This document shows positions 1,075 to 24,022 of a stretch of DNA of 30,995 nt, piece by piece. Position 1 is the stretch's first letter; each line of letters starts with the position of its first letter. Both the position numbers and the translations under genes were made by a program. Below the pieces are notes generated by a model, which was not told the DNA's origin, did no database searches, and worked only from the letters and a program-made list of their open reading frames with translations. Source of the stretch: a virus; the IMG/VR virus record IMGVR_UViG_3300049456_000051, positions 1-30,995 of that record. One strand, 5' to 3'.

Positions 1075-2870
1075 GCGCCTCCTGGGAGATCCGCGAGGGC
1101 GACTGCATCGAGCAGATGCGAGCGATGGAGGATCGCTCGATCGACGCGATCGTCACCGATCCGCCCTACGGGATCGGCTTCATGGGCCACGAGTGGGATC
1201 AGCCGGGAGAGTTCGGGCCGGTTGCTCCCGACGAGGACGTACCCCTGCAGGGCGGCAAGCGTCGGCGATCGCAACCGTCGGCGGCGGTCGGCGCCGGTCA
1301 CGCGCGCGAACGCAAGCCGCTCCACGGTCACGGCACGCGCGAGGGCGTCAAGTTCGGTGGGCCGACCGGCACCGACAACACCACGCACAATCTCCGCGGC
1401 GGCGCGATGCACGCCGGCCGCTACGACCTCTCACCGACCGCGAATCAGCGCTTCCAAGCGTGGTGCGAGGCGTGGGCAGCTGAGGCGTACCGCGTGCTCA
1501 AGCCTGGCGGCCACATGCTCGTCAGCGGCGGCACGCGGACCTACCACAGGATGACTGCCGGCATCGAGGATGCGGGCTTCGAGATCCGCGACTGCCTGAG
1601 CTGGCTCTACGGTTCGGGCTTTCCAAAGTCGCTGGACGTGGGCAAGGCGATCGACAAGGCGGCCGGTGCCGAGCGGCCGGTGGTGGGCACGACGCGCAAG
1701 TCCGTGGCCAGCATGGGGCCGGGCGAAGGCGCCTTCTCCGACGATGCCTACGAGTGGCAGTCCGAGTTCAACAGGACTGGCCCCGCAACTCCCGATGCCG
1801 AGCGCTGGCAGGGGTGGGGCACGGCACTCAAGCCCAGCTGGGAGCCGATCGTCGTTGCACGCAAGCCGTTCAGCGGGACGGTGGCCGCGAACGTGCTCGA
1901 GCACGGCACCGGTGCGATCAACGTGGACGGGTGCCGGATCGGGGGGCCATCATGGGGCGAGCGCGCTCCGAACATCGGCGGTCGCTCGGCGGGGATCATG
2001 GGCGATGCCGCAGACCATCCTGGCGGCGTCGCTCATGTCGGAGGCCGCTGGCCGTCCAACGTCGCTCTCGGCCACACCGAGGACTGCCGGATGGTGGGCG
2101 AGCGACGAGTCGCGACCGGGACAGCGGGACCGCAGTCAGGAGGCATCGGCGCGGCTGTGGTCTACCAGCCCTCGGTGAGCAATGAGAGGGGCATCGGTGA
2201 CGCGCAGGGCTACGCCGACGAGGACGGCATGGAGACGGTCGAGGCGTGGGACTGCTCCGCTGAGTGCCCGGTGCGGATGCTCGATGAGCAGACCGGCGAG
2301 CTCGTGTCGGGCGCCAACCCAACCCGGCGCGGGAGCGACAAGTTCCGTACCGCTTACGGCGACTTCGCGGGTCGGGTCGACGTCGAGCCAGCGCGTGGTG
2401 CCGACCGCGGCGGCGCGTCGCGCTTCTTCTACTGCGCCAAGGCATCCACCGCCGAGCGCAACGCCGGACTGGCTGGGTTCGAGGAGGGGTCGAGCCTGAA
2501 GTTCGACCCGACGTCAGCGATCGCGCGGGACGGGCATCGAGGAGCGGGCGTGATGCAGAACGTCCACCCGACAGTCAAGCCGATCGACCTCATGCGCTGG
2601 CTCGTGCGCCTGGTCACGCCTCCCGACGGAACCGTGCTCGACCCGTTCACCGGCTCGGGCACGACCGGCTGCGCTGCCGTTCGCGAGGGCTTCAGCTTTG
2701 TCGGGATCGAGAGGGAGGCGGAGTACGTGGCCATCGCCGAGGCGCGCATCGCATGGTGGGCCGAGCACCCGGAGGGCGTAGAGACCACGAAGCTCTACGC
2801 CGCCGAGCGCAAGCGAGCTGAGACCGCCGCGGCCGGGCAGGTCGGGCTGTTCGATGAGGCGGCAGCGTGA
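1071..2870 (+). CDS. Site-specific DNA methyltransferase, beta class
   Basis: A 599-residue AdoMet-dependent amino-methyltransferase. Catalytic motif IV, DPPYGIGF, is at residues 30-37 and the AdoMet-binding motif I, DPFTGSGTTG, is near residues 524-533. The order motif IV - target recognition region - motif I defines the beta class. DPPY favours N6-adenine or N4-cytosine as target. The middle holds the usual LKPGGHMLV strand and WLYGSGFPKS segment, with a long recognition region between. No restriction enzyme gene accompanies it, so it probably protects phage DNA from host restriction or marks it. It overlaps both neighbours by 4 bases and ends in DEAAA. Confidence 0.93.
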   Translation: MSASWEIREGDCIEQMRAMEDRSIDAIVTDPPYGIGFMGHEWDQPGEFGPVAPDEDVPLQGGKRRRSQPSAAVGAGHARERKPLHGHGTREGVKFGGPTGTDNTTHNLRGGAMHAGRYDLSPTANQRFQAWCEAWAAEAYRVLKPGGHMLVSGGTRTYHRMTAGIEDAGFEIRDCLSWLYGSGFPKSLDVGKAIDKAAGAERPVVGTTRKSVASMGPGEGAFSDDAYEWQSEFNRTGPATPDAERWQGWGTALKPSWEPIVVARKPFSGTVAANVLEHGTGAINVDGCRIGGPSWGERAPNIGGRSAGIMGDAADHPGGVAHVGGRWPSNVALGHTEDCRMVGERRVATGTAGPQSGGIGAAVVYQPSVSNERGIGDAQGYADEDGMETVEAWDCSAECPVRMLDEQTGELVSGANPTRRGSDKFRTAYGDFAGRVDVEPARGADRGGASRFFYCAKASTAERNAGLAGFEEGSSLKFDPTSAIARDGHRGAGVMQNVHPTVKPIDLMRWLVRLVTPPDGTVLDPFTGSGTTGCAAVREGFSFVGIEREAEYVAIAEARIAWWAEHPEGVETTKLYAAERKRAETAAAGQVGLFDEAAA

Positions 2871-3208
2871 TCACGGCCGCCCTCCAGCAGACCGAGGCGC
2901 AATTCCAGACGGCCGTGATCGACCTCGCCCGCATCCACGGTTGGCTCATCGCCCACTTCCACGATTCCCGCCGCCAGCTCGGCGGCAAGCTCGTCGGCGA
3001 TGCTGACGCAGCTGGCTGGCCGGATCTGACGCTCGTCCGCGGTCCCGAGCTGCTCCTCGCCGAGCTGAAGACGGAGAAGGGACGCATCAAGCCGACGCAG
3101 CTCGTGTGGATGGAGGCGCTCCTCGAGGTTGCGCGCTGCAGCGAGTACGTCCACGTGCGGCTGTGGCGGCCGAGTGACTGGAGCGAGATTGAGGCGATGC
3201 TGCGATGA
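2867..3208 (+). CDS. VRR-NUC domain nuclease
   Basis: A 113-residue single-domain protein of the PD-(D/E)xK superfamily, VRR-NUC type. E10 in an N-terminal helix, D53 in GWPDLTLV and E66-L-K68 in LLAELKTEKG give the expected E...D...ExK metal-binding set, followed by a helix with QLVWMEAL. Stand-alone phage VRR-NUC proteins are small nucleases; Holliday-junction or flap cleavage has been shown for relatives, but the substrate here is unknown. It starts at a GTG overlapping the methyltransferase stop, so the two are translated together. That pairing is consistent with DNA processing or host-DNA attack. Confidence 0.85.
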   Translation: MITAALQQTEAQFQTAVIDLARIHGWLIAHFHDSRRQLGGKLVGDADAAGWPDLTLVRGPELLLAELKTEKGRIKPTQLVWMEALLEVARCSEYVHVRLWRPSDWSEIEAMLR

Positions 3209-3639
3209 GCTCGGTGCAGATCGACATCGACGGCCACGACCAGCCCGAGCGCATCTGCGCGTGTGGGTGCAAACGCTCGCTGGAGGGCATGAGACGAAAC
3301 GCGATCTACGCAACCTCAGCCTGCCGGGCACGGGATTGGAAGCGCAGAGAGGGTTACGCCGACCCAAGGCGTCGCAAAGCGTCTCGGAACGGCAGGAGAC
3401 AACGCCCGAAACCCTCAGGTCTGCAGGTCAGCTTCCCGAAGGCCGTCGAGCAGCTGGAGGAATACCTCACACAGCACGGTCACCTCACGCCGTACACGAC
3501 GGCGAGAGCCATTCTGAAGGGTGCGCTGTCTGAGCGTCAGCGCGCGAAGTTGGCCGGACGCGAGCCGATCGCGCCGACGCTCACGACTGACGAGCAACGT
3601 GCTCGCTTCGAGGAACAGCGACTACGGGAGGCAGCGTGA
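3205..3639 (+). CDS. Hypothetical zinc-knuckle protein
   Basis: A 144-residue protein. Residues 18-44 carry CACGCKRSLEG then SACRARDWKRR, matching the C-x-C-G-C...C-R-x3-W-x-R-R pattern of short phage zinc knuckles (typically CxxCG...YCSxxCRxxxWRRR). The rest is basic and then helical, ending LREAA. The GGGAGG inside its last codons is the ribosome site of the next gene. Zinc binding is inferred from cysteine spacing; DNA or RNA binding is plausible from the Arg/Lys-rich segment at about 45-70. No catalytic motif is visible. Confidence 0.65.
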   Translation: MSSVQIDIDGHDQPERICACGCKRSLEGMRRNAIYATSACRARDWKRREGYADPRRRKASRNGRRQRPKPSGLQVSFPKAVEQLEEYLTQHGHLTPYTTARAILKGALSERQRAKLAGREPIAPTLTTDEQRARFEEQRLREAA

Positions 3640-4573: not shown

Positions 4574-4836
4574 CCCCCTCCCACCCTAAGAGCGAGCACA
4601 CAGAGGGGTTTACCTATGCCGACCTGATGCCCGTGCCAGGCGACGTGATGATCCTCGTGCGGGACGGCGGTCTCCGCGGTCGCGCACGCATACGGATCGG
4701 TGACGACATCCTCACTATGCCGATGGACGTGCGCGTTGAGTACTTCGCGGACGACGATCATCCGCCGCTGACTCCGCGCCGCGTCACGGTCAAAGCGGGC
4801 TGGCTTGCCCGGAGAAAGAGGCCCAATGCCTCCTAA
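4570..4836 (+). CDS. Hypothetical small protein with SEHT N-terminal motif
   Basis: An 88-residue protein overlapping the previous stop by ATGA. Its N-terminus PKSEHTEG is echoed in the next two genes (PKSGHTPEP and SEHTPGKG). The middle is beta-rich (VPGDVMILVRDGG, RARIRIGDDILTM), and the end is basic. SEHTPG-like N-termini recur in many unrelated small phage proteins and are of unknown role. No catalytic motif is seen. Confidence 0.6.
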   Translation: MTPSHPKSEHTEGFTYADLMPVPGDVMILVRDGGLRGRARIRIGDDILTMPMDVRVEYFADDDHPPLTPRRVTVKAGWLARRKRPNAS

Positions 4837-7934: not shown

Positions 7935-8542
7935 TGGCGCCCGTCAAGAAACCGGCGCCGCGCGCCGCGCCGAAACCGCCCGCCAAGAAAGGACCGGCCA
8001 AACGCCGTAAGCCGGCCACCGCCAAGGCGGCCGCGAAGCGCGGGCCGCAGAAGCCGTCCAAGCCGGCGGCCAAGCCAAAGCCGGCGGCCAAGCGCAAGCC
8101 GAAGCCGAAGCCGAAGCCTGCGCCGCGGCGGTCAGTCGGCGCCAGCCTCGATCTCCACTCGCTCGGGGCGCGCGTGATCGGCATCTTCGGCACACGCGGC
8201 AACCACACGTTGATCCAGCTGCCGACCGAAGTCGCTGAGCAGCTCTTCGCCGATCCGCTGGCCGCGTCCGGGAGCACGGACGTGATCGCTGCCGCAGAAC
8301 GTGACGTCGCCGCGATCAAGAAGCGCGACAAGGCCCTCGGCGAGTCGGCACTCGCCCGCGCGGCTGTCGCGCTCGCCTTCGAGATCAACCACCCGTGGAA
8401 CTCCGCCACGTCGAAGTCCATGTGCGCGCGTGAGATGCGCGAGACCATCGACCGCCTGCGCGAGCTAGCGCCAGAGGAGGAGGAGGCGGATCAGCTTGAC
8501 GACCTCCGCGCTCGTCGCGCCGCCCGGATCGAGTCTGGCTGA
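7934..8542 (+). CDS. terS: Terminase small subunit with histone-like N-terminal tail
   Basis: A 202-residue protein. Residues 1-66 are almost only Lys, Pro, Ala and Arg, with no acidic residue and repeated KPK, AAK and PAK units, like histone H1 tails. The remainder is a normal actinophage small-terminase body: an ARAAVALAFEINHPWNSATSK helix pair and REMRETIDRLRELAPEEEE, the typical 'select, then RELR-x-LLDxLRELAP' C-terminus. Small terminases recognise the packaging site and regulate the motor. ATG 7934 overlaps the HNH stop, with GAGGG 7 nt upstream. The tail probably adds non-specific DNA affinity. Confidence 0.8.
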   Translation: MAPVKKPAPRAAPKPPAKKGPAKRRKPATAKAAAKRGPQKPSKPAAKPKPAAKRKPKPKPKPAPRRSVGASLDLHSLGARVIGIFGTRGNHTLIQLPTEVAEQLFADPLAASGSTDVIAAAERDVAAIKKRDKALGESALARAAVALAFEINHPWNSATSKSMCAREMRETIDRLRELAPEEEEADQLDDLRARRAARIESG

Positions 8543-10031
8543 GCCGCTCGGAGTCCAGCTCCCGCGAATTTCCTGGGTCCCGCCGTACGTCTCGTCGGTC
8601 GGGCCCGAAGCAATCGAGCTGTGTCGGATGGCCGGGCTCTTCCTCGACCCGTGGGAGGAGCACATCCTCACGGAGTCGCTCGGCGAACGCGCGGACCACA
8701 AGTGGGCTGCGTTCGAGGTCGGCGTGGTCGTTCCCCGACAGAACGGCAAGGGATCGATCCTCGAGGCACGGGAGCTGACCGGGCTCTTCCTGCTCGACGA
8801 GCGCCTGCTGATCCACTCGGCGCACCAGTTCGACACGTCGCTCGAGGGATTCCGCCGGCTGCTCATGCTGATCGAAGACACGCCCGATTTCGATCGGCGT
8901 GTTTACCGCGTCGTCAAGTCGCACGGCGAGGAGGGCATCGAGCTCAAGAAGAACCCGCGGACAGGCCTGCGGCAACGCATCCGGTTCCGCACCCGCACCA
9001 AAGGTGGCGGCCGCGGATTCACTGCCGATTGGCTCGGTCTCGATGAGGCGATGATCCTGCCCGAGACGACGGTGGGTGCTCTCCTCCCGACCCTGTCGGC
9101 AAGGCCGAACCCGCAGGTCATGTACGCAGCCTCGGCCGTCGACCAGGAGGTTCACGACGAGGGCGTCGCACTCGCCCGACTTCGCGAGCGTGCTCTGTCC
9201 CGTAACGATCCGTCGCTCGCCTACTTCGAGCACTCGGTCGACGCCGCGAACCCTGCGGAGGTCACGCTCGCGATGGCGAAGGACCCAGAGCGCTGGGCCG
9301 AAGCCAACCCTGGGCTCGGCATCCGAATAACGACAGAGCACGTCGCTCGGGAGCAGCGATCTATGGACCCGCGCACCTTCGCTGTCGAGCGCCTGGGCGT
9401 CGGCGACTGGCCGCGCACAGATGGCCTTGAGGGCGTCGTCATCACGCCAGAGGCGTGGGCGAGTCGCACCGATCGCGAGTCCTCAGCTCTCAACCCAGTC
9501 TGCTTTGCGCTGGACGTCAACCCCGACCGCACCGCCGGAGCCGTCGGCGTCGCCGGGCTGCGCACCGACCGGCGGTCACACGTCGAGATCATCGAGCACA
9601 AGAAGGGAACCGGCTGGATCGTCCCGCTCGCCGCGGAACTCGTTCTCAGCCACAAACCGGTCGGCGTCGTGTGCGACGCGAGCGGACCGATCGCGTCGCT
9701 GCTCAGCGAGCTCGCCGACGCCGGCGTCGAGGTCACCCTCGTCAACGCCAAGGAGCAAGCGCAAGCGTGCGGCCTTCTCTACGACGCTGTCGATCAGGAC
9801 ACGCTGCGCCACCTCGGCACGCGCGAGCTGACGACGGCGATCGCCGGCGCCGTCAAGCGCCCGCTCGGCGACGCCTGGGCGTGGTCGCGCAAATCGTCCG
9901 CCGTCGACATCTCCCCACTCGTCGCGATCACGCTCGCGCACTGGGGCTCGCAGACGCTCACGCCGCCCAAACCAGAAGTCATCGATCTGAACGAGCTGAA
10001 GGCCGAGATGGAAGCCGACGGCGAGCTCTAA
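8496..10031 (+). CDS. terL: Terminase large subunit
   Basis: A 511-residue packaging motor. The ATPase has Walker A PRQNGKGS (residues 80-87) and Walker B LGLDEA (D183, E184). The RNase H-like nuclease has acidic residues in CFALDVNPD (D340, D344), VVCDASG (D394) and near AVDISPLVA (D471). The start is a TTG at 8496 with AGGAGG 9 nt upstream, inside the small-terminase gene (47-base overlap, different frame). It pumps genomic DNA through the portal and cuts it. It is of the HK97/actinophage Terminase_1-like group. Confidence 0.95.
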   Translation: MTTSALVAPPGSSLAEPLGVQLPRISWVPPYVSSVGPEAIELCRMAGLFLDPWEEHILTESLGERADHKWAAFEVGVVVPRQNGKGSILEARELTGLFLLDERLLIHSAHQFDTSLEGFRRLLMLIEDTPDFDRRVYRVVKSHGEEGIELKKNPRTGLRQRIRFRTRTKGGGRGFTADWLGLDEAMILPETTVGALLPTLSARPNPQVMYAASAVDQEVHDEGVALARLRERALSRNDPSLAYFEHSVDAANPAEVTLAMAKDPERWAEANPGLGIRITTEHVAREQRSMDPRTFAVERLGVGDWPRTDGLEGVVITPEAWASRTDRESSALNPVCFALDVNPDRTAGAVGVAGLRTDRRSHVEIIEHKKGTGWIVPLAAELVLSHKPVGVVCDASGPIASLLSELADAGVEVTLVNAKEQAQACGLLYDAVDQDTLRHLGTRELTTAIAGAVKRPLGDAWAWSRKSSAVDISPLVAITLAHWGSQTLTPPKPEVIDLNELKAEMEADGEL

Positions 10032-10043
10032 CACTCGAACCAA

Positions 10044-10062
10044 AGGAGATCCTCCATGGAGG
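10044..10062 (+). promoter_or_regulatory. Self-complementary ribosome binding site and start codon
   Basis: The site AGGAGATCCTCCATGGAGG can fold two ways: GGAG (10045-10048) with CTCC (10052-10055), covering the Shine-Dalgarno, or CCTC with GAGG (10051-10062), a perfect 12-bp palindrome across the ATG at 10056. Either would limit initiation at the next gene unless ribosomes arrive from terL. Confidence 0.5.
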
Positions 10063-10355
10063 CATCAGTCGCCACACCCGCAGCGCCCGCCGCATCCGAG
10101 CAGGCCAACGACGAGGCGCCCAAGGCGCCGGTCGCCGCTGCGCCCGACGCTCCGGAGCCCGAGGCTGCTGTCGAGGCCGAGCCGACCACGCCGGGCACCG
10201 TTCACCTCATCGACGGCAAAGCCGTCGACATCACGTCGATCGAGAGCTTCCTCGAGCAGATGGCCGGCGACGCCGGCGAGCTCTGGGTGAAGCTCGAGCA
10301 GGCTGGCGGCAAGGCGATCGCCTTCCTCAAGAGCGCCGTCGTCGCGCACGAGTAG
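10056..10355 (+). CDS. Hypothetical acidic Ala/Pro/Glu-rich protein
   Basis: A 99-residue protein between large terminase and portal. Residues 1-50 are a low-complexity Ala-Pro-Glu chain (EPEAAVEAEPTTPG) likely to be disordered. The C-terminal half folds as a short helical domain (VDITSIESFLEQMAGDAGELWVKLEQAGGKAIAFL). No known family. Its position suits a head-assembly accessory or terminase-portal linker, which is inference. Its acidity contrasts with the highly basic tail of small terminase two genes upstream. Confidence 0.6.
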   Translation: MEASVATPAAPAASEQANDEAPKAPVAAAPDAPEPEAAVEAEPTTPGTVHLIDGKAVDITSIESFLEQMAGDAGELWVKLEQAGGKAIAFLKSAVVAHE

Positions 10356-10363
10356 CGCGCCTC

Positions 10364-10406
10364 GGCCGCGTCCGCGCGGCCTCCAGCACACGACGACGTG
10401 GAGGCC
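10364..10406 (+). promoter_or_regulatory. Two mutually exclusive hairpins covering a ribosome site
   Basis: Hairpin A pairs GGCCGCG (10364-10370) with CGCGGCC (10375-10381), loop 4. Hairpin B pairs GGCCTCCA (10378-10385) with TGGAGGCC (10399-10406), loop 13, and buries the GGAGG (10400-10404) of the gene at 10413. They share 10378-10381, so only one can form: A frees the ribosome site, B hides it. Confidence 0.5.
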
Positions 10407-10412
10407 TAGCCG

Positions 10413-10676
10413 ATGCTCTTGCGGAACCCGTTCACCATCAAAAATCACCAGGTCAGGATGCACCTGCAGGGCGGCACGATCCTCACGGATGGGGGGCCGC
10501 CCGTCCAGCAGTCCGACATCACGATCGAGGGGGTTCTCGCCGGCGAATCGCGGCGTCACTACATCGTGTGGGCGCCGAAGGTGATGGCCGAGGGCGCGAG
10601 TGGCGAGCCGGCTGATCTGTCCGGGCACGTGCAGATCCCGCGCGAGCGAGTCCTGTTCATCCAGGTCCTGGCGTAG
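10413..10676 (+). CDS. Hypothetical small head-module protein
   Basis: An 87-residue beta-rich protein, starting at ATG 10413 8 nt after GGAGG. It opens MLLRNPFTIKNHQVRMHLQ and includes QSDITIEGVLAGESRRHYIVW and PRERVLFIQVLA, strands consistent with a small beta-barrel. It lies 3 nt before the portal gene. No family known to me; the fixed place between terminase and portal suggests a structural or decoration role. Its expression may be controlled by the hairpins just upstream. Confidence 0.6.
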   Translation: MLLRNPFTIKNHQVRMHLQGGTILTDGGPPVQQSDITIEGVLAGESRRHYIVWAPKVMAEGASGEPADLSGHVQIPRERVLFIQVLA

Positions 10677-10679
10677 GTC

Positions 10680-11957
10680 ATGTCCGGCCTGGTGTTGGCC
10701 ACCCCGACCGGGAACCGAGAGGTCCGCGCGGTCAGCGGCGCGGTGCCCTGGGGGCCGACTACCGTTCCGCCGCCTCCGGGCTGGGCCGACGGGAGCGTCA
10801 CACAGTCGGCGGCGCTGCAGATCGCCGCCGTCTATGGCTGCGTCGGACTGCTCACGAGCTCGGTCGCGACGCTGCCGCTGCGCCTGGTCGACAACAAGAT
10901 CCTGCGCAACGCGAAAGAGCTCCCGGCCTCGCCGCTGATCACCGAACCGTACGCGGAGATCAGTCTCCTCGACTGGATCGTGCAGTTCGTCGCCGGCCTG
11001 GCATTGCGGGGCAACTTCTACGGGCACATCATCGACCGCGATCGCGATCTGTACCCGACGCAGATCAAGCCGATCCCGGCCGACAACGCGACCGTCCGGC
11101 GCAACCGCGAAGGGCAGGTCGAGTACCGCTTCTTCAACAAGCTGATCCCGATCGACGACGTGTTCCACGTCAAGATGCTCTCGATGCCCGGGATGCTCGA
11201 GGGCGTCAACCCGATCCAGTCGCTGCGTCTCACCTTCAGCCTGTCGATCGAGCAGGCGCGCTACGGCGAGGGGTTCTTCAAAAACAGCGCCTACCCCGCT
11301 GGCGTGATCGAGGTCGCGGGGAAACTGGAGCGCGGCGAGACGAAGGCGATGCTCAGGAGCTGGCTGAGCGCGCACCAGGGCGTCCCCAACTCGAACCTGC
11401 CGGCAGTCCTCACCGACGGAGCGACGTTCAAGCCGGTCACGATCACGCCGGAGGACTCGCAGTTCCTGCAGTCGCGTGGCTTTTCGGCCGGCGAGATCAG
11501 CGGCATGATCTACCGGATCCCGCCGCACATGATCGGCCTCGTCGATCGCACCACCTCGTGGGGGACCGGCGTCGAGCAGCAGGAGCTCGGCTACACACGC
11601 AACACCCTCCAGGACTACATTGGCCGGCTGCAGGAGTCGCTCACGGCCCTGCACCCGCCCGGGCAGTTCGTGAACCTGGATCTGAACCACCGCCTGCGCG
11701 GCGACACGCTGCAGCGCGCGCAGGCTGGCTCGCTGATGATGCTCGCTGGCGCATGGTGCGCCGACGAGGTCCGGGCGCTGTTCGACATGCCTGCCGCGCC
11801 CAAAGGCCAGGGCAAAAAGTTCTTCGCGCCGATCAACACCGAGCTGCTGCAGGCGGCTCTGGCGCAGGTGGCAGCTGCAGAAGCCCAAGCGAATGAACCG
11901 CCTGCCCAGCTCGGCAGCGGCGAACCCGATTCCGGCGTGACCGGAGGTACAGCATGA
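10680..11957 (+). CDS. HK97-type portal protein
   Basis: A 425-residue portal, normal length for the HK97 family. Hallmarks are the AAVYGCVGLLTSSVATLPLRL helix near residue 50, KLIPIDDVFHVKML and IQSLRLTFSLSIEQARYGEGFFKNSAYPAGVIE in the middle, then FSAGEISGMIYRIPPHMIGLVDRTTSWGTGVEQQ and the closing YTRNTLQDYIGRLQ stretch that forms the crown side. Twelve copies form the ring through which terminase loads DNA. The ATG follows the previous stop by 3 nt; the protease gene overlaps its end as ATGA. Confidence 0.95.
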   Translation: MSGLVLATPTGNREVRAVSGAVPWGPTTVPPPPGWADGSVTQSAALQIAAVYGCVGLLTSSVATLPLRLVDNKILRNAKELPASPLITEPYAEISLLDWIVQFVAGLALRGNFYGHIIDRDRDLYPTQIKPIPADNATVRRNREGQVEYRFFNKLIPIDDVFHVKMLSMPGMLEGVNPIQSLRLTFSLSIEQARYGEGFFKNSAYPAGVIEVAGKLERGETKAMLRSWLSAHQGVPNSNLPAVLTDGATFKPVTITPEDSQFLQSRGFSAGEISGMIYRIPPHMIGLVDRTTSWGTGVEQQELGYTRNTLQDYIGRLQESLTALHPPGQFVNLDLNHRLRGDTLQRAQAGSLMMLAGAWCADEVRALFDMPAAPKGQGKKFFAPINTELLQAALAQVAAAEAQANEPPAQLGSGEPDSGVTGGTA

Positions 11958-13210
11958 AAAAGCCGACGCAGGCGGAGTTGGACCTCGAGGGCGCTATCCG
12001 TGGCGCCGTGCGTGCCGACGCGAGCTTTGACATCGCGCGCAGACACATCGCGCGAGAGGCTGAGTCGCTGAAGCTCTCCGAGCTGATCCCCGAGAACTGG
12101 CGCGAGGACGGGTCACTGAAGAACGCGGCCGGCGTCTGGTCGACCTCCGAGTTGCGCGACACGGCAAACGACGTCTTCACGGCGCTAGAAGGCGCGATCA
12201 GCGACCTCTACGAGGGCGAATACTCCTACTACGCCTGGGTGCAGGATTGGTACGGCGGCGGAACGACGGAGGAACCGTACATCGTCGTCTTCCGCGCTGG
12301 CGGTGAGCTCTACGCCGCCGAGTTCACCTACGACGACGACCAGAAGATCGAGATCGGCGAGAAGGTCAAGGTCCGGCCGATCACGCTGTACGTCGAACGT
12401 GAGCAGAAAGCGTCGCCGGAGAAGCGCACGGCAGCCCACGACCTCGAGTGGCGCAAGTCCAAGGCCCGGTCGCTCGGCAAGGGCACGCCCGAGCGACGCG
12501 ACGTATTCGAGCTGACCTCGATCTCCGCCGAGGTCGAGCTGCGCGCGGATGGTGAGGACGAGGGTGTCCTCGTCCTCACCGGCTACGCCTCTGTCACGGG
12601 GACTCCGTACGACGTCGGCTTCTACCAGGAGACCGTCGAGCGTGGTGCCTTCAAGCGCACGCTGAGCAACAGCGATCTCGACGTGCAGCTGCTCGTCAAC
12701 CACATCGGCCTGCCGCTCGCGCGCACTACCTCGGGCACGCTCACGCTGAGCGAGAACGAGAAGGGGCTGCTTGTCCGAGCCGAACTGGATCCGGAGGATC
12801 CGGACGTCCGCTCGCTCGCCCCGAAGATGCGCCGCGGCGACGTGACGGAGATGAGCTTCGCCTTCCGCGTGCTCGATCAGGAGTGGAGCGACGACTACAC
12901 CGAGCGTTCGCTGACCTCGCTGGACATCCACCGCGGCGACGTGTCGGTCGTGTCCTACGGCGCGAGCCCAACCACGAGCACAACGTTGCGCTCTGAGGAG
13001 GCCAATGAGTTCATCGCCACGGTGGAGAGGCGCAGCGGCGAGAGCCTGCCTGCTGCAGCCAAGCGCCAGCTATTCGCCGATCTGACCGGCCAGGAGCCGA
13101 CGGAGGTTGAGGAGGAGCAGCGCGAGGTCCCATCTCCCACGCCGCTGGTCATCCCTGACTACACCAAGCGCGCCCGCCTGCAGCTCGCGGCGCTTGGAGT
13201 CCGGCGATGA
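11954..13210 (+). CDS. Prohead protease with extra N-terminal domain
   Basis: A 418-residue protein, about twice the usual size. The protease core (about residues 186-345) has GYASVTG, FKRTL, catalytic H250 in LLVNHIGLPLA, and S301 in VTEMSFAF, as in HK97 gp4-type serine proteases. Residues 1-170 form an added region: a helical part, then SYYAWVQDWYGGG, PYIVVFRAGGELYAAEFTYDDDQKI and KVRPITLYVERE, resembling the 'Y-V-x-D-W-D-x-x-V-V-F' beta domain fused to some prohead proteases. It cleaves the capsid N-terminal arms during maturation. GGAGG lies 7 nt before the ATG. Confidence 0.9.
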   Translation: MKKPTQAELDLEGAIRGAVRADASFDIARRHIAREAESLKLSELIPENWREDGSLKNAAGVWSTSELRDTANDVFTALEGAISDLYEGEYSYYAWVQDWYGGGTTEEPYIVVFRAGGELYAAEFTYDDDQKIEIGEKVKVRPITLYVEREQKASPEKRTAAHDLEWRKSKARSLGKGTPERRDVFELTSISAEVELRADGEDEGVLVLTGYASVTGTPYDVGFYQETVERGAFKRTLSNSDLDVQLLVNHIGLPLARTTSGTLTLSENEKGLLVRAELDPEDPDVRSLAPKMRRGDVTEMSFAFRVLDQEWSDDYTERSLTSLDIHRGDVSVVSYGASPTTSTTLRSEEANEFIATVERRSGESLPAAAKRQLFADLTGQEPTEVEEEQREVPSPTPLVIPDYTKRARLQLAALGVRR

Positions 13211-14409
13211 GTGGCGAGGCGGGCGACACGGTCATCGAGGACGTGCCACGGATGGATCTCGCGACGGCGAGCAATGAGGATCTCGTCGCCGCAGCGCGCG
13301 GCGGCGACTACCGGATCGTCCGTGAGCCTCGTACGTACGAGCGCCACGGCGCGCACTCCTACTTCCAGGACCGCTTTCTGGCCGCTCGTGGCGAGAGTGC
13401 CGAGGCCGAGGAGCGACTGCAGCGCCATGCGGTTGAGTGGCGTGTCGACACCCGCGAGCGTGAGCTGCGCGCGATGCTCGCGGTGGACGCACCCTTCGAG
13501 TTGCGGGCTACGCCGAGCTGGACTCCGGGCGAAGGTGGGTACTTCGCCCCGCCGCTTTGGCTGATCTCGTACTACGCCGACATCCCTCGACCGGAGCGAG
13601 TGCTCGCGAGGCTCGCGCCGAACTTCCTGCTGCCGAAGGGGTTCCAGGAAATCAACCTGCCGGTGCTCACCGGCAGCGGCCCGGCAGCTGACCCGCAGAC
13701 GCTTGACACGCCGGTCCTCGACACGGACATGACTGACTCGGCTGCGAAGAGCTCGGTCGTGACAATCGCCGGAACGGAGGACGTGCCGCTGCCGATGCTC
13801 GAGCAGTCTCCTGCCGGAGCCTCCCTTGACTGGCTGGTCGGGAAGGCGCTCGAAGCGGCCTACCAGGAACAGCTCGAGCAGCAGCTGATCAATGGCAGCG
13901 GCGTCAACCAGATCCTCGGGCTGTTGAACGTGAAAGGCATCAACGCGATCGCCTACCCCGGGGCGCCAGAAGGCACGACGCTTTACCCGGTGCTCGGCAA
14001 GGCGATCGCCGCGATCGGGCGCAAGCGCAAGATCCCGATGGAAGCCTGGCTGATCAATAGCCCCCGGTTCGCGTGGATCGCGACGTCTGAGGACAAACAG
14101 GAACGCCCGCTGCTGCTCTCCGATTACGCGGGTGACTTCCCGACGGCCGGGCTTGCAAGCCGCCCTGTGTACCTCGACGACGGGATCCCGACACTCGCCA
14201 ACGGGCAGGAGCCGATCATCGCGTGCTGCCCCTCGGATCTGATGGTCCTTGAGTCCGACCCGATCATCGACGTGATGACCCAGCCGCTCGCCGGTTCGAT
14301 GGGCGTCCGCATTCAGACCCGGCGCTATGTCGTCGGGATCACGGCGCGCTACCCGACAGGGATCAGCGCGATCACGGGCGCCGGCATGGTGCCCGTCGCT
14401 GGCTACTAG
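13207..14409 (+). CDS. Major capsid protein 1 (HK97 fold)
   Basis: A 400-residue HK97-fold capsid protein, ATGA-coupled to the protease. After an N-arm of about 110 residues comes GGYFAPPLWLIS (residues 110-121), then VVTIAGTEDVPLPMLEQSP, GKALEAAYQEQLEQQLINGSG and the closing RRYVVGITARYP segment, all standard for this fold. It is clearly paralogous to the next gene: PPLWLIS, TIAG-x2-D-V/I-P, LEQSP and an N-arm EP-x2-Y-x-RH motif are shared. The N-arm is much shorter than its partner's and lacks the long acidic coiled coil. It may be the shell or a minor vertex or mixed capsid component. Confidence 0.9.
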   Translation: MSGEAGDTVIEDVPRMDLATASNEDLVAAARGGDYRIVREPRTYERHGAHSYFQDRFLAARGESAEAEERLQRHAVEWRVDTRERELRAMLAVDAPFELRATPSWTPGEGGYFAPPLWLISYYADIPRPERVLARLAPNFLLPKGFQEINLPVLTGSGPAADPQTLDTPVLDTDMTDSAAKSSVVTIAGTEDVPLPMLEQSPAGASLDWLVGKALEAAYQEQLEQQLINGSGVNQILGLLNVKGINAIAYPGAPEGTTLYPVLGKAIAAIGRKRKIPMEAWLINSPRFAWIATSEDKQERPLLLSDYAGDFPTAGLASRPVYLDDGIPTLANGQEPIIACCPSDLMVLESDPIIDVMTQPLAGSMGVRIQTRRYVVGITARYPTGISAITGAGMVPVAGY

Positions 14410-14461
14410 CCGGCCCCCGAACGTCCTGCAGCGCCCCGCATTGTCGTCTCGCCCCGCAGCA

Positions 14462-14545
14462 CCCGCGTGCCCCGTCCAGGCACACGCGGGACCTGCTCGG
14501 CCCGGCGCAACCCGGGAGTCACCCACCGCCCGCCACGGGCTCCCG
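14462..14545. promoter_or_regulatory. Two intercistronic hairpins between capsid genes
   Basis: In the 149-base gap between the capsid genes, CCCGCGTG (14462-14469) pairs with CACGCGGG (14483-14490), and CGGGAG (14513-14518) with CTCCCG (14540-14545). Neither is followed by a T-run, so they are more likely transcript-stability or partial-attenuation elements than terminators. No promoter was recognised in the gap. Confidence 0.4.
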
Positions 14546-14558
14546 AAAGGAACACACG

Positions 14559-16292
14559 ATGCGACACCTGACCAAGGCCGAAGAGCGCTGGGGCAGCCCG
14601 CTCCCGCCGCTTGCGGGAGGCGATCCCGCACTGACGGAGCCGTCGAATGAGACGGAGCCGGAGACCGACGAGCGGTCGCTCCTGCAGAAGATGCTCGACC
14701 GCCGGGCTGAGCTCGCCGGCGAGGTCGACCCGCTCATCGAGGAGCGAGAGAAAGAGCACGCCGAGTTCGAGGCGCGCGAGGCCGCAGAGAAGGACGAGGA
14801 CAAGCCGACCGACGAGGAGCGCACCGTCTTCATCGAGGCGGAGGAGGCGTTCAACAAGCGCGTCCAGGCGAACCTCAAGGAGATCAAGTCGCTCGACTTT
14901 CGGATCGAACGGCAGGAGCTCGTTGAGCACGGCCGCGAGCTCGCGACCCGAGCGAGCGAGCGCGAGGCGAGCACGAGCGTTGTGATCACGCACGAACCGG
15001 AGGTCTACGGCCGTCACCGCGAGGCCAAGGGCGCCTCCTATTACCTTGACCTCGCGGCGAAGATGCGCCCCGACCTCCGGTCGGAGCTCGGCTCGAAAAT
15101 CGATGGCTTCGCCGAGCGCCTGGAGAAGCACGGCAAGATGATGGACGAGCTGCTGCCCAAGCGCGAGCAGCAGCGCAAGCGTGTCGCCGAACGCCAGATC
15201 GAGCGCGCCGAGATGGAGACCCGGGGACGTCTGGGGATCCAGCGGCGCGGGCTTGACGTCAGCCCGTTCGAGAAACGGGCGCCGTCGCGCGAACCCGGTC
15301 AGGGTGGCTACGCGGTTCCCCCGCTGTGGCTGATCTCCGACTACCTCGAGTTCCTGCGTCCGGGTCGCGTCGCTGCTGGCCTGTGCCGGCAGATGCCGCT
15401 GCCTCCGGGCACGGACTCGATCAACATCCCGAAGCTCACCACGCCGACGGCGGTCGCGATTCAGACGGCCGACAACGCGCCGGTGGTCTCCCAGGACATC
15501 AAGGACAACTACGTCAACGCGGCGGTCAAGACGATCGCCGGGTTCGCGGACATCCCCGTGCAACTGCTCGAGCAGTCGCCCGGGACGATCATCGACCAGG
15601 TGATCACCCGCGACATGATGGCCGCGTACGACGTCGCCCTCGACAAGCAGGTCATCTTGGGCAAAGGCGTCGGAGCGCCGCTCTCCGGTGGCGAAATCAA
15701 GGGCATCTACCCGAACACCAACTGGGAAGCCAACACAGTCACGTGGACCGCGGCGTCGCCGAAAGCACAGGGCTTCTTCCAGGTGCTCGGCGCGATGGCG
15801 TCCAAGACGGCCCAGACGAGGTTCAACCTCAAAGACTTCACGTTCCTGGTTCACCCCAGGCGTGGATTCTGGGCCTTCACCGCGGTCGACACCGTCGGCA
15901 GGTTCCTCGTTGGCCAGGACGACGGCGGCTTCAGCAACTTCAACGCTGACGCGATCTACGGGTCCGAGGACGCGCCCTTCGAGGGCTATCTCGGGAAAGT
16001 CCCGTTCGGGCCGAAGCTGTACATCGACGCGAACATGCCGACCACAGACGCCTCCGGAGTTCCCGGCGCCGGCGCGGCCGACATCGGGATCGGTGCGATC
16101 TGGGATGACCTCTGGCTGATGGAGGGCGACATCCGCACGGACGTGTTCGACCAGACGCTCTCGGGCACCCTGGAGATTCGCTTCCGGCTCTACAACTACG
16201 TCGCGCTGTTGCAGCGCTACGGGCCGTCGGTGACGATCGCCTCCGGGACCGGCTTCGCCGCGCCGGAAACCGAAGACAAAACGCCGTACTAG
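14559..16292 (+). CDS. Major capsid protein 2 with scaffold-like N-terminal domain
   Basis: A 577-residue HK97-fold capsid protein. Residues about 35-135 are an acidic, charged coiled coil (ERSLLQKMLDRRAELAGEVD and following) like the scaffolding delta domain removed by the prohead protease. The conserved EP-x2-Y-x-RH arm motif follows, then a second helical stretch to about 240. The mature fold starts near GGYAVPPLWLIS (249-260), with TINIPKL-like strand, KTIAGFADIPVQLLEQSP, and the end RFRLYNYVALLQRYG. With a scaffold and a terminator directly after it, this is probably the main shell subunit. Its Shine-Dalgarno is AAAGGA. Confidence 0.93.
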   Translation: MRHLTKAEERWGSPLPPLAGGDPALTEPSNETEPETDERSLLQKMLDRRAELAGEVDPLIEEREKEHAEFEAREAAEKDEDKPTDEERTVFIEAEEAFNKRVQANLKEIKSLDFRIERQELVEHGRELATRASEREASTSVVITHEPEVYGRHREAKGASYYLDLAAKMRPDLRSELGSKIDGFAERLEKHGKMMDELLPKREQQRKRVAERQIERAEMETRGRLGIQRRGLDVSPFEKRAPSREPGQGGYAVPPLWLISDYLEFLRPGRVAAGLCRQMPLPPGTDSINIPKLTTPTAVAIQTADNAPVVSQDIKDNYVNAAVKTIAGFADIPVQLLEQSPGTIIDQVITRDMMAAYDVALDKQVILGKGVGAPLSGGEIKGIYPNTNWEANTVTWTAASPKAQGFFQVLGAMASKTAQTRFNLKDFTFLVHPRRGFWAFTAVDTVGRFLVGQDDGGFSNFNADAIYGSEDAPFEGYLGKVPFGPKLYIDANMPTTDASGVPGAGAADIGIGAIWDDLWLMEGDIRTDVFDQTLSGTLEIRFRLYNYVALLQRYGPSVTIASGTGFAAPETEDKTPY

Positions 16293-16293
16293 A

Positions 16294-16362
16294 CCGACCA
16301 CTTGGGAGCCCCCGGCCACTCGGCCGGGGGTTTCCCTCTGTCATCTGACCCTGAGTGGTCGG
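16294..16362 (+). terminator. Intrinsic terminator enclosed by a long-range stem
   Basis: CCCCCGGCC (16309-16317) and GGCCGGGGG (16322-16330) form a perfect 9-bp stem with a 4-nt loop followed by TTT, a strong intrinsic terminator after the second capsid gene. Around it CCGACCACT (16294-16302) pairs perfectly with AGTGGTCGG (16354-16362), so the whole element can fold as a stem enclosing the terminator, ending right before the next gene's ribosome site. It would lower downstream transcription relative to capsid protein. Confidence 0.85.
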
Positions 16363-16376
16363 AAAGGAGTACTCCC

Positions 16377-16994
16377 ATGTCCGGATCAGATCTGGTGGCC
16401 GCGGGCTACCCGACGACGTACCCGTTTCGAAAGCTGCTCGGCCTGGCCGGGCAGGTACAGCAGGCCAACCGAAGCCAGCGCTCGAACCTGGAGTTCACGG
16501 GGCTCGCGAACCCGACAGACGGGGCGCTTGCCGGCACGGGCGTCGGCTGCTTCGTGCCGATCCCCGTCGAGGTCGGTGATGTGCTCAGCAAGATCACGAT
16601 GCTGGTCGGCGCCACCGCGGCCGAAACCCCGACGCACTCGTTCGCGGCGCTCTACTCCGGTATCGCCGTGCCGGCGCTCCTCGGGCAGTCCGCAGACGGC
16701 ACGAACGCGGCGATCGCCGCGTCCAAACCGTTCACGTTCACGCTGGAAAACGCGCTCGAAGCCACGGCGGCGAACGCGCCGAACGGCTTCATCTACGCCG
16801 AGGTGGCGGTCACGGCGACCGTGGTCCCGACCGCGGCCGTCGTCTCCATCCCGACGGCGATCGGCTACCAGTGGTTCACGAACGGGCCACTGTTCCTGTC
16901 GGCCACCGCTGGGGCGGCGCTGGTAGGCAAAGCCGCCGCGACCATCGTGACGCCGGCGGCGAAGGCCGTCGCGCCACTGCTGTTCGTCTCCTAG
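16377..16994 (+). CDS. Hypothetical virion protein, candidate capsid decoration
   Basis: A 205-residue protein just after the capsid terminator. ATG 16377 has AAAGGAG 7 nt upstream; this site lies in a palindrome, GGAGTACTCC (16366-16375). The sequence is Ala/Thr/Val-rich, beta-structured (VGCFVPIPVEVGDVLSKITMLVG, FIYAEVAVTATVVPTAAVV) and ends in a hydrophobic tail APLLFVS. It resembles jelly-roll structural proteins that modify phage surfaces. The position right after capsid genes suggests a decoration or head-fibre base role; this is inference. Confidence 0.6.
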   Translation: MSGSDLVAAGYPTTYPFRKLLGLAGQVQQANRSQRSNLEFTGLANPTDGALAGTGVGCFVPIPVEVGDVLSKITMLVGATAAETPTHSFAALYSGIAVPALLGQSADGTNAAIAASKPFTFTLENALEATAANAPNGFIYAEVAVTATVVPTAAVVSIPTAIGYQWFTNGPLFLSATAGAALVGKAAATIVTPAAKAVAPLLFVS

Positions 16995-22594: not shown

Positions 22595-24022
22595 ATGCTC
22601 AACGTGAAAGTCACAACGGGCGAGACGGCTGCCGCCAGAGGTCCGTTCCCCTCCGCCGCAACGACGATCGTCGTCGGCAAGTTCGACCAGGGGCCTGCCA
22701 TCCCCGTGCAGATCCGCAGCATGGCGCAGCTGATCCAGACGTTCGGCCCGCGCAGCAACGTCAGTGCTCCGGCCTATGACTCCGTGCAGACGATCCTCGC
22801 GATCGCGGAATCGCAGTGCTTCGTGATGCGCGAGACCGACGCCACGGCCACCACGGCGAAACTGGTCCTCAAAGACGCTGCGGCGAAGCCGACGATCGTC
22901 GTCAGCGCCAAGACGCCCGGCGTCGATGGCAACAACCTGAAAATCGAAGTGGTCGTCGCCGCCGGCAAATACACGATCGTCGTGAGCAACGCCGAAGGAG
23001 TGCTCGAAACGAGCCCCAAATTCACGACGCAGGCCGAATCGATCGCCTGGTCAGTCGCATCGCCCTACGTGACGCTCGCCGCCTCCGCCGAATCGGAACA
23101 CACAACGGAACCGCCCGTCGCTCTTGTGGCCAAAGCGCTGTCCGGCGGCGCCGACGCGAGCGACCTCACGGAAGCGTCGATCGCGGCAACGCTCGCGCTG
23201 ATCCCGAAGAGCGTCGGAGAGGCGCAGCTGATCGTTCCCGGGGAAACCGGTGCTACGGCGCACAACGCGATGGCGCTGCACTGCCGAGAAAACAACCGGT
23301 TCGCCTGGTTCGACCTCGCCGACTCGGCGGTTGCCGCGACGCTGATCGGCGAGAAGAGCATCGAAGCCGTTCTGGCGGGCTACGGAGGCTCGCTCTCCTC
23401 GAGCGCGATCATCCCCGGCCTCACGCCGGGCACCACGCGCACCGTCCCCGGCTCGGCGGTCATGGCCGGCTTGTGCGCACTGGTCTCCAAGCTCGGCAAC
23501 AACAGCGTTGCGCCGTCTGGGGCTGATTGGCCGATTCCCTACGTCCTCGGCTTCACAAACTTCTTCACCGAAGCGGAAGCCGAAACGCTGCAGCTGGCCG
23601 GGATCACGCCGGTCGTCGAAGAACGCGGCATCTTCTGCCTGCAGGGGTTCTACACGTGGCTCAGCCGCGAATCAGACGCGATCTTCTGGCAGGCGTCTGC
23701 GGCCAGGGAGCGGATGGCGCTCGTCGGCGAGGGCGAAATCATCACCGGCCGCTACCGGCGCAAGCTGCTCGGCGGCCGCAAGTCGGTTCTCGGCAAGTTC
23801 CAGATGGAGCTGCAGGGCCTGATCACTCGCCACTGGGAAGCGGGCGCGCTGTTCGGCGAAACCGCTCCCGAAGCCGGGACGGTGGACATCGGCGAACCGA
23901 TCAACACGCCGGCGTCGCTGCAGGCCGGTGAACTCGGAGGAGAACTCGAGGTCAAGATCGCTCCGTTCGCGGACAAGGTCAACCTCAAACTCGTGACCGC
24001 GCCGATCAGCGAACCGCTCTAG
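22595..24022 (+). CDS. Contractile tail sheath protein
   Basis: A 475-residue tail sheath protein, the key evidence for a contractile tail. It has the characteristic AIIPGLTPGTTRTVPGSAVMAGLCALVSK stretch, an N-terminal TIVVGKFDQGPAIPVQI with SMAQLIQTFGP, and the C-terminal RYRRKLLGGRKSVLGKFQMELQGL block involved in sheath handshaking. The middle (about 105-185, KPTIVVSAKTPGVDGNNLKIE) is an inserted beta domain. Its ribosome site is AAAGGGG. Sheath subunits wrap the tube and contract on adsorption. Confidence 0.93.
   Translation: MLNVKVTTGETAAARGPFPSAATTIVVGKFDQGPAIPVQIRSMAQLIQTFGPRSNVSAPAYDSVQTILAIAESQCFVMRETDATATTAKLVLKDAAAKPTIVVSAKTPGVDGNNLKIEVVVAAGKYTIVVSNAEGVLETSPKFTTQAESIAWSVASPYVTLAASAESEHTTEPPVALVAKALSGGADASDLTEASIAATLALIPKSVGEAQLIVPGETGATAHNAMALHCRENNRFAWFDLADSAVAATLIGEKSIEAVLAGYGGSLSSSAIIPGLTPGTTRTVPGSAVMAGLCALVSKLGNNSVAPSGADWPIPYVLGFTNFFTEAEAETLQLAGITPVVEERGIFCLQGFYTWLSRESDAIFWQASAARERMALVGEGEIITGRYRRKLLGGRKSVLGKFQMELQGLITRHWEAGALFGETAPEAGTVDIGEPINTPASLQAGELGGELEVKIAPFADKVNLKLVTAPISEPL

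Follow-up and report, generated by a model that had tools for sequence, protein, structure and literature searches.

Two adjacent HK97-fold capsid protein genes in a clade of uncultured phages and their proposed division between hexamers and pentamers

Background

Bacteriophage T4 is described as the one virus in which two HK97-fold proteins serve separate roles (PMC12407261, 2025). These proteins, gp23 in the hexamers and gp24 in the vertex pentamers, are paralogs of low identity encoded in one genome, and gp23 is reported to lose an N-terminal peptide of 65 residues and gp24 one of 10 residues (PMC9958956). A comparable division is described for the satellite SaPIbov5, whose capsid-protein homolog Ccm forms pentamers while the CP of phage phi12 forms hexamers (PMC8569155). 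In Family 2B encapsulins, nearby genes likewise encode two shell proteins of HK97 fold, but these are described as being incorporated in a seemingly random mixture and do not form viral heads (PMC12407261). Beyond T4, SaPIbov5/phi12 and the encapsulins, no other two-MCP (major capsid protein) tailed phage appeared among the open-access PMC papers listed.

The locus studied here lies in a window, i.e. the whole stretch of DNA that was analysed, of 30,995 bases (positions 1 to 30,995 of virus record IMGVR_UViG_3300049456_000051). Its capsid family is that of single-MCP Mycobacterium phages (Omegavirus, Typhavirus) and actinobacterial prophages with the order portal-protease-MCP, which differ in having one MCP only, as indicated by a single match in each of four complete Mycobacterium phage genomes. 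In contrast, the window encodes two, MCP1 and MCP2, which, like gp23 and gp24, are HK97-fold paralogs of low identity in one genome. The best reading of the analyses below, made by analogy, is that the pair works like gp23/gp24 in an unrelated subfamily, the HK97/S78-protease lineage. A split of hexons and pentons between two HK97 proteins is already known from T4, and the MCP1/MCP2 pair would be an independent variant of it with a possible satellite twist.

Results

The head module of the window (8496 to 16292) has the gene order TerL, portal, S78 protease, MCP1, MCP2 (Table 1). The initial annotation had reported two adjacent HK97-fold capsid genes, the first coupled to the protease. The coordinates given are exact, profile matches and predicted models agree with the assignment, and the coupling is borne out by the sequence ATGA at 13207-13210, which holds both the stop codon of the protease and the start codon of MCP1. 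No Pfam match was found for the N-terminal extension of the window protease. Homologs of the gene that follows MCP2 occupy the same place in most pair loci having enough downstream sequence, and no Pfam or PHROG match was found for its product (within E 5 and 0.01), which is a candidate decoration or accessory head protein. Elsewhere in the window, a tail-sheath-like gene (22595-24022; phrog_23, 1.2e-16) makes a contractile tail probable, and a DNA methyltransferase gene is located at 1071-2870 (PF01555, phrog_67).

Table 1. Features of the head module in the window, and group I introns in MCP2 genes of related loci (L numbers)
Feature	Position	Strand	Support
Terminase large subunit (TerL)	8496..10031	+	phrog_9 1.3e-64
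Portal protein	10680..11957	+	PF04860 9.5e-62
S78 prohead protease with N-terminal extension of ~190 aa	11954..13210	+	PF04586 1.3e-28, residues 194-350
'W-D' domain within the protease extension	12161..12496	+	MCP1-N-terminus profile, domain E 3.7e-5
MCP1, 400 aa, capsid protein with HK97 fold (pentamer or vertex subunit in the proposed model)	13207..14409	+	PF05065 6.1e-13
MCP1 N-terminal domain, 109 aa preceding the GGYxxPP core, without coiled-coil hairpin	13207..13533	+	
MCP2, 577 aa, capsid protein with HK97 fold (hexamer subunit in the proposed model) and a putative built-in delta (scaffold) domain	14559..16292	+	PF05065 1.6e-6
Coiled-coil-like helical hairpin of the putative MCP2 delta domain (residues 41-137), absent from MCP1	14679..14969	+	AlphaFold2
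Conserved gene after MCP2	16302..16994	+	homologs at same place in pair loci
Group I intron in MCP2 gene	L018:6947-7175		E 1.7e-7
Group I intron in MCP2 gene	L165:6265-6523		E 4.2e-11
Group I intron in MCP2 gene	L165:4906-5123	-	E 1.2e-6
Group I intron in MCP2 gene	L148:7769-8003		E 5.9e-9
Group I intron in MCP2 gene	L162:5068-5270	-	E 1.7e-4

Both proteins scored above the curated cut-off of Pfam PF05065 Phage_capsid (24.2 bits), with 49.2 bits for MCP1 and 28.2 bits for MCP2, and both matched the major head protein family phrog_2263 (9e-21 and 3e-27, respectively). They are 30% identical to each other over 391 alignment columns (E 4e-42). No T4-capsid family appeared among Pfam matches at E up to 0.1, which consisted of Phage_capsid and, for MCP1, a sub-cut-off match to Major_capside. 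The AlphaFold2 models (mean pLDDT 84.7 for MCP1 and 77.1 for MCP2) matched HK97 1ohg_A with Z 21.0 and rmsd 3.4 over 257 residues for MCP1 and Z 18.8 and rmsd 3.8 over 255 residues for MCP2, and all HK97 elements were predicted in the MCP1 model; structure prediction thus bore out the shared fold proposed initially. PDB sequence searches with single MCP sequences gave nothing useful, whereas a profile search does find HK97. Vertex placement from the best-matching PDB chain was tried and abandoned, as MCP1 did not consistently match pentamer chains and the Z differences were ties. The A-domain deletion seen in the window MCP1 is not shared by the clade, and the idea that such a deletion is a general trait of MCP1 was dropped.

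The motifs PPLWLIS, TIAG-x2-D-[VI]-P, LEQSP and EP-x2-Y-x-RH, from which a duplication had been deduced, are present in both proteins, but their columns are also conserved in single-MCP Mycobacterium phages. Being largely family-wide, the motifs indicate kinship and not recent duplication. The EP-x2-Y motif had been assigned to the N-arm; it sits upstream of the GGYxxPP core start and is probably part of the removed pro-domain rather than of the mature N-arm.

The N-terminal domains of the two proteins differ in length. At 20 paired loci, 175-264 residues precede the GGYxxPP core in MCP2 and 77-197 in MCP1, the domain of MCP1 being the shorter in 20/20. In the MCP2 model, helices 41-74 and 85-137 form a hairpin (pLDDT 89-95 for residues 41-120, 81 for 121-130 and 60 for 131-140), and MCP1 is without such a hairpin; common to both is the later part of the domain with EP-x2-Y, SYF or SYY, and RL-x-[RK]H. 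The MCP2 hairpin is a putative delta scaffold domain, and the stretch preceding GGY may, by analogy with HK97, be the cleavage region.

A profile of the W-D domain, constructed from the MCP1 N termini of L018, L022, L024 and L032, four subclade members with longer MCP1 proteins, matched the window protease (residues 89-200 of its stop-to-stop ORF). In L022, the domain in MCP1 begins at 4671. Among the matches listed, the 45 pair loci have the domain in the protease (19), in MCP1 (4), in both (0) or in neither (19), and three have no protease in view; this distribution indicates that the W-D domain has moved between the two neighbouring genes. Zinc-finger-like CxxCxGxG motifs were also observed in proteases of L037 (3376-4100), L018 (3127-4608), L133 and L167, those of L018, L133 and L167 being found by eye.

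Relatives of the pair were collected in IMG/VR scans (the best 80 of 485 relatives; 71 relatives; and, with an MCP2-based scan, the best 80 of 578 relatives) and in one genome scan (32 loci). The MCP2-based scan was added to the MCP1-based searches, which are blind to MCP2-only elements. Near-identical copies were removed (97% clusters), and the repeat-copy loci L001, L002, L003 and L005 were dropped before counting. Among the matches listed, 56 distinct MCP1 proteins were obtained at 97% identity, of which 45 had an MCP2 on the same contig and 11 did not. Some of the contigs without MCP2 are truncated, and five have more than 2 kb of downstream sequence lacking MCP2. A protease was in view in 42 of the 45 pair loci, before MCP1 in 41 and after it in L100 (order portal-MCP1-protease-MCP2); by a loose test, the MCP1 start codon is near the protease stop in 37 of these 41.

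Within the best 80 of 578 relatives, L189 was the one contig that scored above 400 bits with the MCP2 profile and lacked an upstream MCP1. Contigs with intermediate scores (about 265-350) had a single MCP, except for L201, whose MCP2 is cut by the contig end, and L196, whose MCP2 is split. Whole-record searches found no third MCP gene in the window, in 16 pair records or in another set of pair records. Among named phages, the nearest relatives were 57 Mycobacterium phage records per query, with one place in each. The view that most relatives have a single MCP gene was upheld when 26 control records were searched whole, using a capsid profile of 55 rows: there was one match in each of 25 records and two in the 26th, the pair contig L035 included as positive control. 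The sole pair locus from a bacterial genome is L100, from an Actinomycetes MAG, and the hosts of the pair phages are therefore probably Actinobacteria. The pair is real, ancient and widespread in uncultured phages, and it is probably functional.

Another phage with two capsid genes was also observed: in L161, which covers 12 kb of a contig of 24 kb, they lie far apart (1704-3278, and 8614-10023 on the minus strand), the order being MCP, TerL, portal, protease, MCP. The nearest relatives of each copy are single MCPs from mycobacterial contigs, so this case is separate from MCP1/MCP2. In addition, group I introns interrupt the MCP2 gene at several loci, mostly right at the core start (Table 1); the Rfam gathering score was reached by only one of them, in L165. 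The MCP2 gene of L038 is split at the same place as the intron-bearing genes, and no intron match was found there.

In a tree of 159 cores, MCP1 (53 rows) and MCP2 (39 rows) each formed one clade (SH-aLRT 100 and 96, respectively), although the class labels were taken from profile scores and the test is not fully independent. The MCP1 and MCP2 distance matrices of 20 loci were correlated (Mantel r 0.79, a value reached in none of 9999 permutations); L018 and L038, with split MCP2 genes, are excluded from all 20-locus statistics. Neither copy has decayed: dN/dS was 0.12-0.31 for MCP1 and 0.11-0.23 for MCP2 (ten pairs each), indicating purifying selection on both. In 159 of 171 pairs, the divergence of MCP1 exceeds that of MCP2.

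A single clade of the MCP1 and MCP2 of pair phages was rejected when L189 was left outside (p-AU 0.007) but not when L189 was included (p-AU 0.19), so that the pair may stem either from an old duplication or from acquisition from another phage. The simple reading of a recent tandem duplication is also rejected by this test, although the long branches may be distorting the tree. L189 is a 35.9-kb contig with an MCP2-type protein directly after the protease and no MCP1; in that tree, its protein is the sister group of every pair-phage MCP2 other than that of L100, and its pentamers presumably consist of that one protein. L100 has a true MCP1, and its second MCP lies, weakly placed, outside the MCP2 clade, so the partnership may lack a single history. 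At 13 columns diagnostic for MCP1 and MCP2 (L100 omitted), single MCPs agree with MCP2 in 10 and with MCP1 in 2, which marks MCP1 as the changed copy.

The effective number of codons (ENC) was lower for MCP2 than for MCP1 in 17 of 20 loci (p 2e-4); as a calibration, the MCP of single-MCP phages had a lower ENC than the portal gene in 50 of 53 cases. C-ending codons exceeded those of the portal gene in 17 of 19 loci for MCP2 and in 10 of 19 for MCP1. The weaker codon bias of MCP1 is typical of low-copy genes and fits a minor protein; together with the missing hairpin and the diagnostic columns, it points to MCP1 as the derived, minor partner. Shine-Dalgarno strength did not differ between the two genes (MCP2 stronger in 13 of 20 loci, p 0.42), and a stronger ribosome-binding site on MCP2 was rejected.

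Eight contigs (L137, L153, L135, L020, L154, L133, L026 and L151) carry MCP1 without MCP2 or portal. An own portal gene is part of the definition of capsid-forming PICIs as given in PMC10690885; PF04860 was matched in 0/8 of these contigs, which are fragments, and in 10/10 pair contigs. A protease usually accompanies MCP1. An integrase was found in three of the eight, the three longest, and replication genes on the contigs L163, L164, L166 and L167; contig ends were not reached in either case. L163 (the contig of L153, 13.1 kb) encodes an integrase, a replication initiator, MCP1 and the protease; L164 (of L137, 18.0 kb) an integrase, a helicase, RusA, a TIR-domain protein and MCP1; L166 (of L135, 11.5 kb) Prim-Pol, AAA, HNH, TerL, the protease and MCP1; and L167 (of L020, 8.5 kb) a D5-type primase, HNH, TerL, MCP1 and the protease. 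Since L166 ends about 540 bases after MCP1, its MCP2 may be cut off. The TIR-domain protein of L164 (2987-4219, minus strand; PF13676 3e-13) is possibly defence cargo.

By eye, a small, charged, helical-looking protein was noted between MCP1 and the protease in L167, L133, L154, L151 and L163. No match was found between the small coiled-coil-like proteins of these contigs and the MCP2 delta domain, and the idea of their homology was dropped. On the MCP1 tree, the satellite-like sequences (L135 not counted) need four label changes, at least three of which are forced by well-supported branches. The MCP2-less contigs look like satellites, although all are incomplete and an MCP2 gene may be located outside the part in view, and they fit a role of MCP1 as a vertex part that can be pirated alone.

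Discussion

Following the precedents of T4 gp24/gp23 and SaPIbov5 Ccm, we propose that the hexamers consist of MCP2 and the vertex pentamers of MCP1, as two specialised shell proteins of one capsid, and we consider this arrangement rather probable. MCP2 would keep the ancestral design, with an N-terminal coiled-coil delta domain as internal scaffold, a cleavage site and the HK97 core, and would build the hexamers and thus the bulk of the shell. MCP1 would have lost the scaffold hairpin and would be made in smaller amounts via translation coupled to the protease gene. The two proteins would co-assemble into the procapsid, MCP1 would form the pentamers at the vertices without portal, and the single S78 protease would trim the pro-domains of both. 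We infer each of four elements of this proposal: the presence of both proteins in one virion, the pentamer position, the protease cleavage and the lower copy number of MCP1. Counted against the division are the equal Shine-Dalgarno strengths, the best-matching PDB chains of MCP1, the 11 of 56 distinct MCP1 without MCP2 on the contig, L189, the second MCP of L100, and the longer MCP1 N-domain with W-D homolog in four subclade members.

The likeness to T4 extends to the minor protein, since gp24 and MCP1 both have the shorter N-terminal pro-piece, the removal of which is presumed for MCP1. The systems differ in that MCP2 appears to carry its scaffold as a domain of its own and that the protease is of the S78 type. 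SaPIbov5 differs in that Ccm is encoded by the satellite, whereas MCP1 and MCP2 are both encoded by the phage; the closer parallel to Ccm is offered by the satellite-like contigs with MCP1 and without MCP2. Of the two possibilities raised at the outset, distinct capsid positions are consistent with conserved, undecayed paralogs, the placement itself being our proposal, and alternative shells are less likely for the phage, although the satellite-like contigs may do something similar.

MCP1 might instead set capsid size or shape (for example by making the head prolate or larger, or by switching between two shells) by replacing MCP2 pentamers in some particles. Ccm pentamers are described as turning the prolate helper capsid isometric (PMC8569155), MCP1 occurs without MCP2 on the satellite-like contigs, and L189 manages on an MCP2-type protein alone. 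However, among the matches listed nearly all phages of the MCP2 clade keep MCP1, which suggests a constitutive role, and nothing points to two particle sizes, so that such a role appears unlikely.

It is quite unlikely that MCP1 and MCP2 are mixed in hexamers and pentamers in variable composition, as in the two-component Family 2B encapsulins, those of Streptomyces lydicus being described as tiling irregularly (PMC12407261). The same fold and core elements in the predicted models of both proteins would allow such mixing, but MCP1 lacks the scaffold hairpin and has just 30% identity to MCP2, and the codon bias would fit one clearly minor and one major protein.

The coupling of the MCP1 start codon to the protease and the position of MCP1 directly after the portal in L100 could also suggest a non-shell protein reusing the HK97 fold, whether a structural or portal-vertex adaptor protein or a regulator; this we regard as improbable, given that all HK97 elements are predicted in MCP1 and that its Phage_capsid score is higher than that of MCP2. 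That the second gene is merely a passenger, or a duplicate undergoing decay, as the greater divergence of MCP1 might suggest, is scarcely credible in view of its dN/dS of 0.12-0.31, its intact frames and its conservation down to about 40% identity, and decay of one copy was rejected on the dN/dS of both.

Conclusion

The hexamer and pentamer division proposed for MCP2 and MCP1 may be part of a wider history, which we put forward tentatively and at somewhat less than even chances: a large clade of uncultured phages, probably infecting Actinobacteria, would have independently evolved a dedicated pentamer protein, and satellites would several times have taken MCP1 and the protease, without the hexamer protein or portal and sometimes with a small coiled-coil protein encoded between the two, rebuilding the helper shell at a smaller size. 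If the division is true, the pair would be a second independent case beside T4, with more than 40 sequence-diverse examples from which the rules of pentamer specialisation could be read by comparison. A scaffold built into one partner alone would be a natural test of the role of the delta domain. If satellites pirate the corner protein alone, control of capsid size via the vertices would be a repeated strategy.
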